Below are positions 40,178 through 48,950 of a stretch of DNA of 64,000 bases, in pieces (position 1 is the stretch's first letter; each line of letters begins with the position of its first letter). The translations under genes were made by a program, and so were the position numbers. The DNA comes from Myroides odoratus. GTDB taxonomy: Bacteria; Bacteroidota; Bacteroidia; Flavobacteriales; Flavobacteriaceae. The notes below the pieces were generated by a model that was not told where the DNA came from, made no database searches, and saw only the letters and a program-made list of their open reading frames with translations. The stretch is taken from contig NZ_LROZ01000001.1 in assembly GCF_001549985.1 (NCBI RefSeq), positions 1 to 64,000 of the forward strand, given 5' to 3'.

Positions 40178-40189
40178 TGATAAATATCA
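40178..40189 (+). promoter_or_regulatory. Crp/Fnr-type activator site upstream of nirK
   Basis: TGATAAATATCA, a perfect inverted repeat TGAT-N4-ATCA, lacking only the outer T/A of the Fnr consensus TTGAT-N4-ATCAA on one side (the downstream base is A). It is centred at 40183.5, 41.5 bases before the start predicted from the -7 box at 40213-40220, the standard class II activator position. The same core occurs before the cco genes. Confidence 0.75.
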
Positions 40190-40195
40190 ATATAA

Positions 40196-40211
40196 AAGAC
40201 AAAAATGTCTT
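40196..40211 (+). promoter_or_regulatory. palindromic operator AAGACA-N4-TGTCTT, likely for the NsrR-like Rrf2 regulator
   Basis: AAGACAAAAATGTCTT sits between the activator site and the -7 box, overlapping the -33 region. The same 16 bases form the centre of a longer palindrome (48921-48950) in front of the rrf2 gene. Binding here by a repressor would block RNA polymerase. That the Rrf2 protein is the ligand-binding repressor is inference from the shared site. Confidence 0.7.
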
Positions 40212-40212
40212 C

Positions 40213-40220
40213 TATATTTG
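40213..40220 (+). promoter_or_regulatory. -7 promoter element of the nirK operon
   Basis: TATATTTG, exact match to TAnnTTTG. No -33 TTG at the usual distance, consistent with activator dependence. Predicted start near 40225. Confidence 0.7.
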
Positions 40221-40246: not shown

Positions 40247-41719
40247 ATGATTATGGATACAAAATCACGAAATTTAAAAGGAGGGCTTGGGGCAATTGTT
40301 TTGGCTTTAGGTCTACTAAGTTTGGGTGGATGCTCTCAAAAGGAAACTAAGAACTTGGTCAAGGATGCTGATTGGGCAGAACGCGTAATTGCGCATGGAG
40401 AACGAGAGGCAGAATTAACCGCGCCTCCATTTGTACCTAAACCAGTAGGAAAAAGAGCAGCAACTAAACTAAATGTCAATTTAGAAATTCTTGAACAAGA
40501 AGGTGAAATGGTAGATGGTGTAAAATACATGTATTGGACTTTTGGCGGTACAGTACCTGGTAGTTTTATTCGTACACGCGTAGGGGATGAAGTTGAGTTT
40601 ACCCTTAAAAATCACCCTGACAATAAACTACCTCACAATATTGATTTACATGCAGTAACAGGTCCAGGTGGTGGGGCAGCTTCTTCTTTGGTAGCTCCAG
40701 GACACGAAGTAACATTTTCGTTCAAAACGCTTCATCCAGGTCTTTATGTTTACCACTGCGCAACGGCTCCTGTAGGTATGCATATTGCCAATGGAATGTA
40801 TGGACTTATCCTCGTAGAGCCTGAAGGTGGACTTGCTCCTGTTGATCGAGAATACTATATTATGCAAGGAGATTTTTACACTAAAGGAAATTACGGAGAA
40901 AAAGGACTACAACCTTTTGATATGAATAAAGCCATCAAAGAACAACCTGATTATGTTGTATTTAATGGACATGTTAATGGCTTGGTTAATGACAATGCCA
41001 TCACTGCTAAAGTAGGTGAAACCGTACGCTTATTTGTTGGAAATGGAGGTCCTAACCTAGTTAGCTCTTTTCACGTCATTGGAGAAATTTTTGATCGCGT
41101 ACAGGTAGAAGGAGGTGATTTAATCAATGAAAATGTACAAACTACCTTGATTCCAGCAGGTGGTGCTGCCATTGTAGAATTTAAAGTGAATACTCCAGGT
41201 ACTTTTGTCTTAGTTGATCATTCCATCTTTAGAGCCTTTAACAAAGGAGCATTGGGAATGCTAAAAGTTGAAGGAGAAGAAAATGAAAAGGTTTTTGCTG
41301 GTAAGATTAAAGAAGGTATTTATTTACCTGAAGGAGGAACCATCCAAACCATGCCGACCGATACGAATAAAAAAGCGCCCATTGAAAATAAAACACTGGC
41401 TCAGCAAATGGCAGATGGAAAAAACGTATTCACCAGAACGTGTTTTGCTTGTCACCAATCAGAGGGCCAAGGAATTGAAGGGATCTTCCCTCCTCTTGCT
41501 AAATCTGATTATTTAAATGCGGAGGTCAACCGAGCGATAAAAACAGTGATTAATGGTTTAGAAGGAGAGATTACGGTAAATAAAATTAAATACAACTCCA
41601 TCATGACTAGTCAAAATCTAAGTGATCAAGAAATTGCGGATGTATTGACTTATGTATACAATAGTTGGGGAAATAATAAAACTGTTGTAACCCCTCAAAT
41701 GGTTCAAAAAAATAGATAA
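40247..41719 (+). CDS. nirK: copper-containing nitrite reductase with C-terminal cytochrome c domain, lipoprotein
   Basis: About 490 residues, from ATG at 40247; a GTG at 40244 and ATG at 40253 are alternatives. It reduces nitrite to NO in the periplasm. A lipoprotein signal (LLSLGGC) precedes two cupredoxin domains. Numbering from 40244, type 1 copper ligands are His131 (LPHN), Cys172 (YHC), His180 and Met185. Type 2 ligands are His136, His171 and His326 (VDHSIFRAF), with the catalytic Asp134 and His277. A fused cytochrome c domain follows with CFACH (400-404), a probable built-in electron donor. First of three genes; activator and repressor sites lie just upstream. Confidence 0.95.
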   Translation: MIMDTKSRNLKGGLGAIVLALGLLSLGGCSQKETKNLVKDADWAERVIAHGEREAELTAPPFVPKPVGKRAATKLNVNLEILEQEGEMVDGVKYMYWTFGGTVPGSFIRTRVGDEVEFTLKNHPDNKLPHNIDLHAVTGPGGGAASSLVAPGHEVTFSFKTLHPGLYVYHCATAPVGMHIANGMYGLILVEPEGGLAPVDREYYIMQGDFYTKGNYGEKGLQPFDMNKAIKEQPDYVVFNGHVNGLVNDNAITAKVGETVRLFVGNGGPNLVSSFHVIGEIFDRVQVEGGDLINENVQTTLIPAGGAAIVEFKVNTPGTFVLVDHSIFRAFNKGALGMLKVEGEENEKVFAGKIKEGIYLPEGGTIQTMPTDTNKKAPIENKTLAQQMADGKNVFTRTCFACHQSEGQGIEGIFPPLAKSDYLNAEVNRAIKTVINGLEGEITVNKIKYNSIMTSQNLSDQEIADVLTYVYNSWGNNKTVVTPQMVQKNR

Positions 41720-41720
41720 T

Positions 41721-42500
41721 ATGATGATTACTCATCCCCTTCACTTTTTACTTTGTTTGTTGAGCATTTTGTCCATACAGCTGGCAGATGCTCAGCAAGC
41801 AATACCCATGCAAACCATTCGCGCTGGTGTATTTATTCCACTCTATGGCAGTACGGAAGAGGGTAATGTACGGGTAGGTTCCTTTCAATTGGATCGATTT
41901 GCAGTGACTAATGCACAGTATTTGGATTTCTTAAAGTTAAATCCTTCCTATCAACGCTCACAAATCAAAGCTCTATTTGCTTCAAAGAGTTATTTATCGC
42001 ATTGGAAGAGCGATTTGGATTTTGGGGATTTAAATCCGCAAGCCCCCGTAACGAATATCTCGTGGTTTGCAGCTAAGAAATACTGTGAATGCCTAGGAAA
42101 ACGGCTTCCAACTTTAGACGAGTGGGAGTATGTAGCCATGTCGGATGCACAGCAACTGGATGCAAGAGAAAAAGAAGCCTACAACCAATATATCTTGGCG
42201 TGGTATGAAACACCTAAAACCTACCTCAACCCCGTTGGAAGTACACAAAAAAACTACTGGGGCGTTTACGATATGCACGGTTTAATTTGGGAATGGGTAT
42301 TTGATTACAACTCTATTTTTTTATCTGGAGAAAGTCGAAAAGACAAAGGCAATGACGAGAATCTATTTTGTGGTAGTGCCTCTATCAACGCTTCCGATTT
42401 AATGGATTATGCCGCCTTTATGCGCTATGGTTTTAGAGGGAGCTTACGAGCTAATTTTACAACTAAAAACTTAGGTTTTAGATGCGCGAAAGACCTTTAA
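41721..42500 (+). CDS. nirV: NirV-like protein, formylglycine-generating-enzyme (SUMF1) fold
   Basis: 259 residues. A signal peptide (about 1-24, ending ADAQQ) is followed by an FGE-sulphatase fold: GSFQLDRFAVTNAQYLDFLK near 50, NISWFAAKKYCECLGKRLPTLDEWEY near 110, MHGLIWEWVFDY near 185 and the ending NLGFRCAKDL. NirV proteins of this fold lie next to nirK in several denitrifiers and are thought to help in nitrite-reductase function, but their role is not settled. The paired cysteines of true FGE are not seen at the expected place, so formylglycine activity is unlikely. It starts one base after the nirK stop. Confidence 0.8.
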   Translation: MMITHPLHFLLCLLSILSIQLADAQQAIPMQTIRAGVFIPLYGSTEEGNVRVGSFQLDRFAVTNAQYLDFLKLNPSYQRSQIKALFASKSYLSHWKSDLDFGDLNPQAPVTNISWFAAKKYCECLGKRLPTLDEWEYVAMSDAQQLDAREKEAYNQYILAWYETPKTYLNPVGSTQKNYWGVYDMHGLIWEWVFDYNSIFLSGESRKDKGNDENLFCGSASINASDLMDYAAFMRYGFRGSLRANFTTKNLGFRCAKDL

Positions 42501-42511
42501 AAAATGTACTT

Positions 42512-43132
42512 ATGAAAAAAATTTCCTTCCTATTACTCGCTTGTATCGCGTTATTGTTTTACAACTGTAACAAAGCCAGCACAGTGGAACAAGATTCCAT
42601 TAGAACAACCAACACCTCAACAGAAAAAATATCTGATTTATCCATCTATAATCTTCCCTCTACCTGGACAACCCAAGAAGGAAGGACAATGGAACTCAAA
42701 GAACTTCAAGGAAATGTCTTGGTCATGGTGATGATTTACACCTCGTGCAAAGCTGCTTGTCCTAGATTGGTGGCAGATATGCGTCATATTGAGGAAAAAG
42801 TAACGGGTAAAAACAAAGAGAAAGTAAAATATGTTTTGGTGAGTATTGACCCCGAAGTGGATACGCCAGAACGATTAAAAGCATTTGCCAAGGAGAATAA
42901 AATGGATGGTAATCAATGGATTTTCCTCCGTTCTTCAGCAGATAATACACGAGAATTTGCCGCTACTCTAGCTGTTAATTACAAGAAAATATCACCTATT
43001 GATTTTTCTCACTCTAATATTATTAGTGTATTTAACACAAAAGGCGAACTAGATTATCAACAGGAAGGTCTTGGTATTGATTATGAACCGACAATTAAAG
43101 AAATTGAAAAGCAAATTGCTTTAATTCCATAA
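42512..43132 (+). CDS. SCO1/SenC copper-chaperone lipoprotein
   Basis: 206 residues from the ATG at 42512 (MKKISFLLLACI); the frame extends upstream into the nirV gene. The N-terminal lipoprotein signal ends with NC near residue 19. The thioredoxin-like SCO domain shows the copper-binding CKAAC near 78 (CxxxC), and the His of DFSHSN near 165. SCO proteins deliver copper to cytochrome oxidase CuA, and in this setting probably to NirK copper sites; that is inference from context. Last gene of nirK-nirV-sco, followed by a terminator. Confidence 0.88.
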   Translation: MKKISFLLLACIALLFYNCNKASTVEQDSIRTTNTSTEKISDLSIYNLPSTWTTQEGRTMELKELQGNVLVMVMIYTSCKAACPRLVADMRHIEEKVTGKNKEKVKYVLVSIDPEVDTPERLKAFAKENKMDGNQWIFLRSSADNTREFAATLAVNYKKISPIDFSHSNIISVFNTKGELDYQQEGLGIDYEPTIKEIEKQIALIP

Positions 43133-45426: not shown

Positions 45427-46140
45427 TTAGTTCATTTTATGTTCTAATACAATTGCACTAGGAAACAGAATATTATTTTCTAAGTGAATGTGTTTGTGTA
45501 GATCTTCTTCAAACTCTTTCAACATGGCATACGTTACCTTGTAGGTATTACAAGCATCTGCTGGAGGGGTATAGTTATCGGACAAAGCGGCAATTTTTCT
45601 GAATCGTTCGCCTTCCCCATCGTGTTCATGCATCATCATCGCTACTGGATTTTCAACAGTGCCAAAATGAGGAGCTTCAATCGGTTGTCCCGTAATCGTT
45701 GCTGATACCATTTTACGTACAAAAGGGAATAATACCAATTCTTCTTTTTTCAAATGTTGACTTAGTTCTTGCGCGCAGCCTATAAACAATTCGTTGATTT
45801 CATATAGTTCTGGATGTCGCTCCCCGTGAACCTTGCTTAACTTATTTAAAAACTGTAAGAGCACAGGAATCTTTTCTTCCACATAACGATGATGTGTTTT
45901 TTCAATATAATCCGCTAATAAATCTAACGGCCAATGTCTAAAATCAATATTGTTTTCCGCTTGTTGGCTTAATAGACGTTCTAATTCGCCAATCAATTCT
46001 TCCGCATCCACTGCTTTTTTCTCACATACTTCATCTAGGGTACGTCCACCTTTACAGCAAAAATCAATTCCATATTTGTTGAAAACTGCTGCTGTTCTAA
46101 AATCTTCTGCTACAAATGAGCCTATTGTTCTATTTTTCAT
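45427..46140 (-). CDS. ric: iron-sulphur cluster repair di-iron protein Ric (ScdA/YtfE)
   Basis: 237 residues. The N-terminal ScdA/DUF542 domain reads TIGSFVAEDFRTAAVFNKYG then DFCCKGGRTLDEVC (about 1-50). The hemerythrin-like domain follows with His residues HWPLDLLADYIEKTHHRY near 65, MMHEHDGEGERF near 175 and DLHKHIHLENNILFP near 215, which bind the di-iron centre. Ric repairs iron-sulphur clusters damaged by NO and oxidants. It overlaps the 3' end of norB by 11 bases, so it is translated from the nor message. Confidence 0.95.
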   Translation of the reverse strand: MKNRTIGSFVAEDFRTAAVFNKYGIDFCCKGGRTLDEVCEKKAVDAEELIGELERLLSQQAENNIDFRHWPLDLLADYIEKTHHRYVEEKIPVLLQFLNKLSKVHGERHPELYEINELFIGCAQELSQHLKKEELVLFPFVRKMVSATITGQPIEAPHFGTVENPVAMMMHEHDGEGERFRKIAALSDNYTPPADACNTYKVTYAMLKEFEEDLHKHIHLENNILFPSAIVLEHKMN

Positions 46141-48376
46141 GCTTGCTTTTTTTTAATGTTAATTTAAATATGAATAGGACGATTGCAAAAATTCCTATAG
46201 TGAATAGTACATCTCCAATTGTTCTTAACCATTTTAGGGTATTCATCGCAGGTAATTGCATTAACTCACTTGAACGCGCATACCACATACCGTGTTGAAT
46301 ACTTTCGATTGCCTGCCATATACCAATAGGCAACAGGCTTAATAGTGCCATGAGCAATAAACCTAAATTCAACCCCCAAAAGCCTATTTTCAATAATTTA
46401 TCATTCCATTGTACTGTTCTGTACATGCTGCGTAAGACAAATAGCATTAATCCAATTCCCAACATACCATATACTCCAAATAAAGCCGTATGTCCATGCA
46501 GTGGCGTTGTATTCAATCCTTGAACATAGTACAGTGCTATTGGGGGGTTAATAATAAATCCGAACACTCCTGCACCCAAGAAATTCCAAAACGCTACGGC
46601 TACCATAAAGTAAATAGGCCATTTATAATCTTGTAACCATCCTTTATGCGTTGAGATTTTATAATTTTCATAAGCCTCATATCCAATGAGGGTTAATGGC
46701 ACTACTTCCAAAGCACTGAATGTTGCTCCTAATGCCATCACTGCCGTTGGAGTTCCAGAGAAATACAAGTGGTGGAACGTTCCAATAATTCCCCCTGACA
46801 TAAAGATAATCGTAGAAAACAGAGCCCCATTTGTTGCTGTTTTGGTTTTAATCAAGCCCATTCGCACAAATAAGAAGGCCAGTACAACCGTTGCAAATAC
46901 TTCAAAAAATCCTTCTACCCATAGATGTACCACCCACCATCTCCAGTATTCTGCTATTGCTAGGTTGGTTTGTCTTCCCCACATTAATCCTGCACCGTAA
47001 AACAACGCAATTGCGCCACAAGAAATAAGAAACAGTACAATGAGGTTACGTTGACTTCCTTTCGCTCTTAAAACAGGGATTAAAGGTCGAATCATAAGTG
47101 CTAGCCATAAGAAGAGCCCCACAAATAAGAAGAGTTGCCAAAAACGACCTAAATCAACATATTCATACCCTTGATGCCCAAACCAGAAGTTTTGTACGAG
47201 ATCCAATTTTTGCATAATACCAAACCACTGCCCTATCATAGAGCCTACTACAATAATCAGCAAGGCAACAAATAAAAAGTCTACGCCAAACACTTGATAC
47301 TTGGGATCTTTTCCTCCTACCGCTGGTGCAATATACAATCCTGTACCTAACCAAGCGGTTGCAATCCAGAAAATAGCCAATTGTGTATGCCAAGTTCGCG
47401 TAACAGAATAAGGCAATATTTGATCCAAAGGAATACCATACAAACCTTGTCCTTCTACCCCATAGTGTGCCGTGATAATTCCCAAACCAACTTGAAGTAA
47501 CATCAGCAAGCTTACAACCCAAAAATACTTTTTGAGTCTTGTCATACTCTTTGTGGTTACTCCATTAGAAACAGGATCATCTACAGGTATTAATTCTTCC
47601 TCTTCTCGTTTTGAAGCTACGTGATAGTACACCAGAACCCCTACTGCGAAAATTAGAAGAATAATACTCACCCCAGACCAAGCTAATAAAGGCGTTGTCG
47701 CTTTATTTCCCACTAAATCATCTGCAGGCCAGTTATGCGTATAACTTACCTCGCTATCGGGTCTATTGGTTACCGTTGCCCAAGTTGCCCAAAAGAAGAA
47801 AGCATTCATCTGCTTCATTCGAGTGACATCTTTAATCAAGTTATTGGGAATTGCATAATCTTTGCGCAGCTGATCAAAAGCAGGATCATCTGTAAACAAT
47901 TTGCTATAGTAGTCTTCCAAATACAAGCGCGCTTGATTTCTTTCGGGTGTGATTGTTAGCACGCCTGTCGTTTTATCATACGTATTTGAGCGAATCATGC
48001 CTTGTAAACGCGCTTGCAGGAACGCTTGTTCCTCTTTGCTTGCCGCTTCATATGTTTTACCATATACCTCTTGTGCATAGTAATCCAACAAAAACAGCGC
48101 TTCTCTATGCAAATAATCGGCGGTCCAATCAGGAGCAACGTAGGCTCCATGTCCCCAAATAGAACCTACTTCTTGTCCTCCAATACTTTGCCAAACATTT
48201 TGGCCATCTTTAATATCACTTGCCACAAACACTACTTGTCCATCATTCGTTCTAACTTCTGTAGGCACCGGAGGTGCTTCTTGATAAATTTCTATACCAA
48301 AATAACCGAGTACCCCGAACGAGAATAGCATTACTACCGTAAAGGCTATCCATAATTTTCTTTGACTTATATTCAT
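46130..48376 (-). CDS. norB: quinol-dependent nitric oxide reductase (qNOR)
   Basis: 748 residues. An N-terminal extension with a helix (about 8-30) and a periplasmic domain starting YQEAPPVPTEV is fused to a 12-helix haem-copper-like core, the layout of quinol-type NorB (NorZ), which needs no NorC. It reduces 2 NO to N2O in the inner membrane. Visible ligands: HTQLAIFWIATAW near 331, HLWVEGFFEVFATVVLAFLF near 500 (catalytic Glu region), GTFHHLYFSGTP near 560 and HGHTALFGVYGMLG near 650. Part of rrf2-norB-ric; a hairpin lies just upstream. Confidence 0.95.
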   Translation of the reverse strand: MNISQRKLWIAFTVVMLFSFGVLGYFGIEIYQEAPPVPTEVRTNDGQVVFVASDIKDGQNVWQSIGGQEVGSIWGHGAYVAPDWTADYLHREALFLLDYYAQEVYGKTYEAASKEEQAFLQARLQGMIRSNTYDKTTGVLTITPERNQARLYLEDYYSKLFTDDPAFDQLRKDYAIPNNLIKDVTRMKQMNAFFFWATWATVTNRPDSEVSYTHNWPADDLVGNKATTPLLAWSGVSIILLIFAVGVLVYYHVASKREEEELIPVDDPVSNGVTTKSMTRLKKYFWVVSLLMLLQVGLGIITAHYGVEGQGLYGIPLDQILPYSVTRTWHTQLAIFWIATAWLGTGLYIAPAVGGKDPKYQVFGVDFLFVALLIIVVGSMIGQWFGIMQKLDLVQNFWFGHQGYEYVDLGRFWQLFLFVGLFLWLALMIRPLIPVLRAKGSQRNLIVLFLISCGAIALFYGAGLMWGRQTNLAIAEYWRWWVVHLWVEGFFEVFATVVLAFLFVRMGLIKTKTATNGALFSTIIFMSGGIIGTFHHLYFSGTPTAVMALGATFSALEVVPLTLIGYEAYENYKISTHKGWLQDYKWPIYFMVAVAFWNFLGAGVFGFIINPPIALYYVQGLNTTPLHGHTALFGVYGMLGIGLMLFVLRSMYRTVQWNDKLLKIGFWGLNLGLLLMALLSLLPIGIWQAIESIQHGMWYARSSELMQLPAMNTLKWLRTIGDVLFTIGIFAIVLFIFKLTLKKSKHEK

Positions 48377-48417
48377 ACCATTAAAATAGAAGACTTTTTT
48401 ATCCTTTATTTAGTTTT

Positions 48418-48441
48418 AAAAAAAGGGAATCACGTTCCCTT
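48418..48441 (-). terminator. hairpin between rrf2 and norB
   Basis: Stem AAGGGAA (48423-48429), loop TCACG, TTCCCTT (48435-48441), followed on the minus strand by seven T. It is a normal terminator by form, yet no promoter was found between it and norB, so norB probably depends on read-through. Confidence 0.75.
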
Positions 48442-48448
48442 CCTACCC

Positions 48449-48883
48449 TTATAGCTTCAAAAAAGTATCACCAGATTTGGTACCATTGGCTAACTCTTTC
48501 AAAGAAGTTGTTTCTAACATTTGCTTTAGCTCGTTGCGAATCGACTTGAATTTAAAATGCACTGGACAAGGATGTGTCTCGGAACATTGTGCTAAACCTA
48601 ATCCACAACCTTTATAAATAGAATCTCCATCTATAACATTGACGACTTCACATAGCATAATGTGCTCCAGCTCTTGCACGGGTATTTCAAATCCCCCTCC
48701 TGCTCCTTTGATGGATTCAATGATTCCGCCTTTGACTAACTTCTGTAAAATTTTCGCAACAAATGCTTCTGGAGCATCTATTTCTTTTGCAATTTCTTTA
48801 AACCCAACACGCGTTTCTTCCAGTGATGATACTGCAATAAACACAACAGAACGAATCGCGTATTCACAAGCTTTTGAAAACAT
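48449..48883 (-). CDS. Rrf2-family iron-sulphur regulator, NsrR-like
   Basis: 144 residues from the ATG at 48883 (MFSKACEYAIRSVVF). An in-frame TTG at 48904 is excluded because it is the last three bases of the -7 box. The N-terminal winged helix includes VGFKEIAKEIDAPEAFVAKIL. The cluster-binding cysteines are CGLGLAQCSETHPC (C-x6-C-x5-C), as in NsrR, IscR and RsrR. Before norB-ric and with its site shared with nirK, it is best read as an NO-sensing repressor; IscR-like or other Rrf2 identities remain possible. Self-regulated, by site position. Confidence 0.88.
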   Translation of the reverse strand: MFSKACEYAIRSVVFIAVSSLEETRVGFKEIAKEIDAPEAFVAKILQKLVKGGIIESIKGAGGGFEIPVQELEHIMLCEVVNVIDGDSIYKGCGLGLAQCSETHPCPVHFKFKSIRNELKQMLETTSLKELANGTKSGDTFLKL

Positions 48884-48901: not shown

Positions 48902-48909
48902 CAAAGATA
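48902..48909 (-). promoter_or_regulatory. -7 promoter element of rrf2-norB-ric
   Basis: On the minus strand TATCTTTG, exact TAnnTTTG. A -33 TTG at 48932-48934 lies 22 bases upstream, inside the palindromic operator. Confidence 0.7.
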
Positions 48910-48920
48910 AACTATTTTTT

Positions 48921-48950
48921 CAAATAAAAGACAAAAATGTCTTTTATTTG
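48921..48950 (-). promoter_or_regulatory. 30-bp palindromic operator overlapping the rrf2 promoter
   Basis: Perfect inverted repeat: arms CAAATAAAAGACA and TGTCTTTTATTTG (13 bases each) around AAAA. Its 16-base core AAGACAAAAATGTCTT is the same as at 40196-40211 before nirK. It covers the -33 element, fitting repression. Confidence 0.8.

Follow-up and report, generated by a model that had tools for sequence, protein, structure and literature searches.

A conserved palindrome at nirK, norB and rrf2 of Myroides odoratus as a candidate operator of a putatively nitric oxide-responsive repressor of the Rrf2 family

Introduction

NsrR, a regulator of Proteobacteria, Bacillus and Streptomyces, has an Rrf2 fold, three cysteines and nitric oxide (NO) genes as targets. 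In proteobacteria, its consensus site is gATGyAT-N5-ATrCATc and its targets include hmp and dnrN (PMC1274295); in Streptomyces, the targets are two hmpA genes and nsrR itself, and wing residues 59-64 of the protein (ScNsrR) touch the ends of the operator (PMC9338935). Asp8 of ScNsrR is a cluster ligand and is paired with Arg12 (PMC5411485). In Bacteroides and Porphyromonas, HcpR2, a member of the Crp/Fnr family, recognizes GTAAC-N4-GTTAC and targets hcp (PMC1274295); a term search of the accessible text of that study returned no mention of Flavobacteria or Cytophaga. Clade II nosZ fosmids, many of them assigned to Flavobacteriales, are reported to be enriched in Rrf2-family regulators (PMC6264515); that Rrf2 genes associate with nos clusters is thus already known. 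In the accessible part of that paper, neither an operator nor a regulon is given, and nothing ties these genes to the promoters of nirK, norB or ric. Our literature search, which lay mostly outside subscription journals, found no NO-responsive Rrf2 operator or regulon in Bacteroidota.

Here we describe a 64-kb stretch of the M. odoratus genome (referred to as the window) that encodes an Rrf2-family protein, R1, and its candidate operator. R1 resembles NsrR in its fold, its three cysteines and its predicted regulon of NO genes: this genome has sites before nirK, norB, hmp and nos, and relatives have them before nirK, norB, norC and ric. The operators are also similar in size, 23 bp in Streptomyces and 24 bp for R1. 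An earlier reading of the DNA, made from the letters alone (the sequence-only reading), had noted that the site differs from the proteobacterial NsrR box, and indeed ATAAARGAY-N6-RTCYTTTAT, with its core RGAY-N6-RTCY, is distinct from gATGyAT-N5-ATrCATc (PMC1274295). The proteins differ as well: cysteine spacing is x6/x5 in R1 and x5/x5 in ScNsrR, and R1 has an invariant histidine, H109. With IscR, R1 has in common three cysteines plus a histidine, a likeness of residues only, but the predicted targets of R1 are NO genes and the cut-offs of the IscR equivalogs are missed. RsrR and CymR have the folds closest to the R1 model; however, R1 also falls short of the CymR cut-off. RsrR and CymR have different targets from those predicted for R1. 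HcpR2 and the predicted role of R1 are alike in that both concern N-oxide genes in Bacteroidota, and they differ in family, motif and the target hcp, which is not found here. The Rrf2 genes of clade II nosZ clusters share with R1 their family and, for many of the fosmids, the assignment to Flavobacteriales, which does not imply orthology to R1 or to its paralogue R2.

Results

Three copies of a 24-bp palindrome in the window. The 16-mer AAGACAAAAATGTCTT is found at 40196-40211, before nirK, and again at 48928-48943, before rrf2, both as the sequence-only reading had reported. In the assembly (4,090,212 bases in 76 contigs, 98.15% complete), the pattern AAGACA-N4-TGTCTT has just these two exact matches, so the rarity check on the 16-mer came out in favor of a specific site; the reversed-pattern control has no exact match in the same 4.09 Mb. 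Once two mismatches are allowed, it is noise (337 matches versus 400 in the control). One description had to be corrected: positions 48921-48950 were taken for a 30-base perfect palindrome, but only the two 13-base arms are perfect, and the AAAA at the center is not self-complementary. Comparison with relatives puts the conserved unit at 24 bp rather than 16, with the consensus ATAAARGAY-N6-RTCYTTTAT. We derived a weight matrix from 114 distinct sites (24.6 bits without the center), taken from regions of the genus set described below, some of whose species are also among the named loci. Scanning with this matrix gave three operators rather than two, the third adjoining the norB start (Table 1), and no fourth site of at least 10 bits in the 64-kb window.

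Table 1. Genes and sequence elements around the three candidate operators
Feature	Position	Strand	Remarks
Crp/Fnr-type site TGATAAATATCA	40178..40189	.	centered near -42, supposing a transcription start at about 40226
nirK operator ATAAAAGACAAAAATGTCTTCTAT	40192..40215	.	26.2 bits; 3-base overlap with -7 box
nirK -7 box TATATTTG	40213..40220	+	
nirK, copper nitrite reductase with C-terminal cytochrome c domain	40253..41719	+	Pfam; TIGR02376, 345.9 bits (cut-off 296.3)
FGE-sulfatase-domain gene and SCO1/SenC gene, behind nirK	41721..43132	+	lack a separate operator
ric (ScdA/YtfE), di-iron Fe-S repair protein	45427..46140	-	TIGR03652, 245 bits (cut-off 204.7)
norB, nitric oxide reductase with fused cytochrome c-like domain	46130..48376	-	Pfam PF22085, PF00115
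norB operator ATAAAGGATAAAAAAGTCTTCTAT (minus-strand reading)	48386..48409	.	24.4 bits; 9 bases before norB start
Terminator-like hairpin GGGAA-CGTGA-TTCCC (48425-48439) plus T7, in the rrf2/norB gap	48418..48439	-	by eye; absent from terminator-scan list
rrf2 (R1), 144 aa, C93-x6-C100-x5-C106, E7, R11, H109	48449..48883	-	
rrf2 -7 box TATCTTTG	48902..48909	-	
rrf2 operator ATAAAAGACAAAAATGTCTTTTAT (plus-strand reading)	48924..48947	.	29.0 bits; over -33 region

The Bacteroidota -7 motif is TAnnTTTG, and the -7 boxes of nirK and rrf2 were confirmed. The arrangement of the two promoters in the sequence-only reading also stands: at nirK, the operator follows the Crp/Fnr-type site and precedes the -7 box, which the 24-bp unit overlaps, and the operator of rrf2 lies over the -33 element. 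The stacking of activator site, operator and -7 box at nirK would fit an AND gate for a Crp/Fnr signal and NO. The same reading had treated rrf2-norB-ric as an operon under one promoter. With a separate operator before norB and a hairpin behind rrf2, this is doubtful, and the three genes need not be one transcript. NorB appears to be of the quinol type; the gene has no NCBIfam match. The FGE-sulfatase-domain and SCO1/SenC genes are probably on the nirK transcript and may be NirK maturation genes. In the mapped regions of relatives, nirK is also followed by an FGE-sulfatase-domain gene and usually by a SCO1 gene.

The operator is kept before NO genes of relatives. We used two partly overlapping sets. 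The genus set holds 398 genomes, with an Rrf2 match in 261 at 1e-5 and in 177 at 1e-30 or better; nirK is present in 140 at 1e-60, and eighty regions were mapped. The named set is the best 80 of 466 relatives found with the regulator alignment as query, partly the same species as the 80 genus regions. It covers Myroides, which is nearest to the window, Flavobacterium, further Flavobacteriaceae such as Bizionia, Formosa, Aquimarina and Gelidibacter, and a few other Bacteroidota. In the genus regions, window included, we scored matches to ATAAAAGACANNNNTGTCTTTTAT of at least 16/20 within 350 bp upstream and 30 bp downstream, leaving out one nirK row with a short upstream region (L162). Such matches occur at 62/80 nirK, 34/72 rrf2 and 44/69 ric genes, where a single intergenic site between divergent ric and nirK can count twice. 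Among dinucleotide shuffles of the nirK regions, a score of 16 was reached in 0.25% and 17 never.

The weight matrix was also applied to the best 80 of 466 named loci. At 22 bits or more there are 52 sites, compared with a mean of 0.08 and a largest value of 4 over 60 permuted matrices; at 18 bits or more there are 73, compared with a mean of 0.72 and a largest value of 16. Marine genera in this set have a shifted form of the operator, approximately AATTCGGATAAATTTGTCCGAATT. In these loci, the 200 bp upstream of the gene contain the core RGAY-N6-RTCY for 23/24 nirK, 12/13 norB, 12/15 norC, 45/65 ric and 47/79 rrf2 genes, but it stands before only 22 of 689 control reading frames and before none of 20 copD, 27 FGE and 14 sco1 genes. 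These counts leave out genes with less than 100 bp upstream or a late alignment start, and control frames less than 400 bp from NO genes. At norB, the core is found in the upstream 110 bp in 10/10 close cases (window included) and in 11/12 distant ones. The conservation check proposed with the sequence-only reading, that the operator be kept before nir and nor genes of relatives, thus turned out positive. The sites keep their positions though the surroundings have diverged. An AT-rich genome and two-mismatch matches at noise level are what one would expect if the repeated 16-mer were chance or a dispersed repeat. Given two copies genome-wide, conserved positions amid diverged surroundings and controls near zero, we consider this explanation ruled out for practical purposes.

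The site at rrf2 depends on the neighboring genes. Where norB or ric follows closely behind rrf2, the core is present at 29 of 30 rrf2 genes in the genus regions and at 41 of 42 in the best 80 of 466 named loci; at other rrf2 genes, it is present in 4 of 42 and 6 of 37, respectively. This suggests that the operator serves the NO genes, and that self-control would come mainly with a shared transcript or neighborhood. Autoregulation of R1, as proposed earlier, is therefore plausible mainly where norB or ric follows.

Other sites in the genome. With at most one mismatch, TAAARGAY-N6-RTCYTTTA has nine places in the M. odoratus genome, four of which are at nirK, rrf2, norB and hmp. Four of the other five are inside reading frames (contigs C3, C10, C43 and C59), and one is intergenic (C7), with flanking reading frames that were not identified as NO genes. 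The hmp site is on contig C12 (L201:2730-4517), where a 23.3-bit site and a weaker one of 12.5 bits lie between hmp (NF009805 above cut-off) and a second Rrf2 gene, R2; at the equivalent place in a close relative, the score is 27.4 bits. On contig C4, a weak site of 17.2 bits (L295:3432-3455) is found upstream of a lipoprotein-like gene followed by nosZ (above cut-off). The corresponding nos place in a relative (G020, L210), where nosZ is confirmed, scores 27.4 bits. Two-mismatch matches were otherwise rejected as targets, because they are at noise level (58 versus 89 in the control); nos is excepted on account of its position and its relatives. We also dropped hcp as an operator target, since there is no Prismane (hcp) match in this genome.

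A scan blind to genes found exact matches to TAAARGAY-N6-RTCYTTTA in 158 of the 398 genus genomes and returned 30 loci. The site precedes an NO-related gene in 25 of them: nirK (9), norC (9), norB (3), ric (2), an R2-like rrf2 (1) and nos (1). At two of the 25 (L176 and L186), there is also an overlap between the site and a longer or different reading frame. Among the remaining loci, four have the site inside coding sequence only and one has it before pflB. In the sequence-only reading, a Bacteroidota-specific motif would let an NsrR-like Rrf2 protein control both nirK and its own gene. As a prediction this is supported, the 16-mer being rare and the operator conserved.

The regulator R1. R1 is a winged-helix protein of the Rrf2 family by both PF02082 (84.2 bits, cut-off 30) and TIGR00738 (90.6, cut-off 73.3). 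The C-x6-C-x5-C motif seen earlier is there, as C93, C100 and C106, and is invariant in 28/28 orthologue rows and in 15/15 of a first alignment. H109 is likewise invariant (28/28), and E7 is found in 26/28 and 12/15 rows, with N, Q or K in the others. E7 and R/K11 are four residues apart, the spacing of Asp8 and Arg12 in ScNsrR. By sequence score, membership in NsrR is rejected, with 26.6 bits in NCBIfam, far under the cut-off of 182. R1 also fails the IscR equivalogs (52.4 versus 207.55 and 36.3 versus 275), the SUF regulator (57.1 versus 110.65), CymR (42.4 versus 195) and RirA. Since all of these cut-offs are failed, R1 is better described as a protein that may work like NsrR than as NsrR itself. 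The predicted model of R1 has a pLDDT of 85.5, and Foldseek matches it to structures of CymR, RsrR, NsrR and IscR. The CymR/RsrR folds are closest (2y75, 1.8e-07; 6hsm, 2.5e-07); NsrR 7b0c follows at 5.7e-06, and 5n07 was matched as well.

R1 could instead sense Fe-S status, iron or redox in the manner of IscR, with NO acting as an indirect effector. H109 aligns with H107 of IscR in 4hf2, again a likeness of residues only; IscR is the best single-sequence match in the PDB, though a profile search puts RsrR and CymR first; and R1 scores higher with the SUF regulator than with NsrR, both below cut-off. We nevertheless think this unlikely. The sites are mostly at NO or N2O genes, the IscR and SUF cut-offs are missed, and E7/R11 mirror the Asp8-Arg12 pair of ScNsrR (PMC5411485).

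R1 as the reader of the operator. An exact match to TAAARGAY-N6-RTCYTTTA is present in 141 of the 177 genus genomes with an Rrf2 orthologue (E of at most 1e-30) and in 17 of the 221 without; 36 of the 177 have no exact match. Counted as sites, the ratio to the control is 269:40 with the orthologue and 18:38 without, over the 398 genomes. Genomes with both the regulator and nirK have the site in 126 of 136 cases versus 25 for the control, and those with the regulator but no nirK, in 15 of 41 versus 5, a smaller excess. However, the Rrf2 orthologue occurs in 136 of the 140 nirK genomes, so that presence of the site is confounded with presence of the genes. We therefore examined ric in genomes that lack the orthologue. 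The control comprised 80 of the 221 Rrf2-less genomes, taken at 98% completeness or more up to G248, plus G390, picked for its nirK. Nine have ric, and the core is at none of these nine ric promoters, where the best matrix scores are -2.6 to -14.8. In genus regions with Rrf2, the core is at 44/66 ric promoters, and at 44/46 once the ric genes directly behind norB are set aside. Fisher tests against 0/9, uncorrected for phylogeny, give p = 1.6e-4 and 8.6e-9, respectively; these counts exclude the window as well as rows with less than 300 bp upstream. Four nirK genomes have no detected Rrf2 orthologue. G002 has a 17/20 site at nirK, on a 3.4-kb contig, and no Rrf2 match at 1e-5; G390, which is 82% complete, has a good nirK palindrome; the nirK palindrome of G269 is decayed; and G384 has none.

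Could another regulator, for example of the Crp/Fnr family, bind the palindrome? The Crp/Fnr-type pattern TGAY-N4-RTCA is within 350 bp of 72/80 nirK genes in the genus regions, and at 52/80 the core lies no more than 20 bases downstream of it. The two are separate motifs, however, and part company in the Rrf2-less genomes: several ric promoters there keep Crp/Fnr-like sites (TGATTT-N-AATCAT type, by eye; L296-L304), while the palindrome is at 0/9. From this it seems that ric is activated in those genomes and is not under an R1-type repressor. Since the flanks of the palindrome also vary with the wing of the Rrf2 protein, as described next, binding by such a regulator is very unlikely.

The flank type is the same for nirK and other sites within a locus in 76/82 loci. 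We compared it with the two variable wing residues of R1 orthologues (residues 61-62, xx in KG-xx-GG) in 63 of the best 80 of 466 named loci, the rest having no core site in the stretches examined or no wing match. VG is found in 22 loci, all 22 with AA-flanked operators; A[YHA] is found in 37 loci, 35 of them with non-AA flanks; and four further loci have PT, PS, PY or IN. This co-variation is uncorrected for phylogeny and may stem from few evolutionary events.

The paralogue R2 is the other Rrf2 protein to be considered, and it might bind the operators alone or together with R1. It is 44.6% identical to R1, and much of the first helices and the recognition helix is common to both. R2 is encoded beside hmp and the 23.3-bit site in the same genome, and an R2-like gene is found behind an exact site next to nirK in one relative. 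On the other hand, the co-variation of wing and flanks is seen in R1 orthologues, which bear the site where norB or ric follows, and presence of the site tracks that of the R1 orthologue. We regard R2 as an improbable reader and R1 as the better candidate. In the relative with the R2-like gene (L173 of G195), this protein is 53% identical to R2 and 50% to R1. The nirK of that locus aligns over residues 12-349 only and apparently lacks the cytochrome c tail.

Discussion

We propose that ATAAARGAY-N6-RTCYTTTAT is the operator of a dimeric R1 repressor that is released by NO and jointly controls nirK, norB, ric, hmp and nos. As a reading of sequence data, we hold this to be highly probable. It rests on computed data: the sites, their conservation, the link to NO genes, the absence at ric in genomes without R1, and the wing co-variation. 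Binding, repression, the cluster and the NO response of R1 are what we infer from them.

In the proposed mechanism, a dimer of R1 with an intact Fe-S cluster would occupy the operator. At nirK it would cover the -7 region, at its own promoter the -33 region, and at norB the place directly before the start, and it would thereby bar RNA polymerase. NO would destroy or nitrosylate the cluster, as suggested by analogy with NsrR, and R1 would leave the DNA. This would switch on together nirK, which makes NO; norB, which reduces it; and ric, behind norB, which repairs the damage. In the same genome, hmp, which scavenges NO, and nos, which reduces N2O and has a weak site, would be co-induced. The nirK gene would presumably also need an activator at its Crp/Fnr-type site, and would be on only in the joint presence of NO and the activator signal, which is probably low oxygen. 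NO produced by NirK would then induce its own removal. Most likely, Myroides and its relatives turn on nitrite reduction and NO defense together.

A broader proposal has, in our estimate, an even chance of being right. R1 would represent an Rrf2 lineage distinct from NsrR, with a cluster site of its own made of three cysteines, an invariant histidine and a near-invariant glutamate, and would act as the general NO switch in Flavobacteriaceae that denitrify, perhaps also in other Bacteroidota. The operator ends would have co-evolved with the wing, and nirK would be derepressed by its own product in a positive NO loop gated by the Crp/Fnr-type activator.

Soils, sediments and wastewater are rich in Bacteroidota. 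A defined operator would make their NO and N2O regulon predictable from sequence, and the switch that it implies between nitrite reduction and the removal of NO can be put to the test. The wing of an Rrf2 protein and its DNA also furnish a natural example of co-variation.

Several smaller observations were made at sites outside the window. The exact match before pflB (formate C-acetyltransferase) lies 294 bp from the gene (L200/L211 of G315) and may be due to chance or point to a link with anaerobic metabolism. In another relative (L209 of G321), the operator stands behind a Crp/Fnr-type site and before the gene of a 422-aa outer-membrane-like protein; some other relatives carry comparable genes close to nirK or norCB. 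The locus of hmp and R2 in M. odoratus also contains a low-complexity repeat (L201:6774-7379), with plus-strand open frames of LLFVLCS/LLFALCS units.
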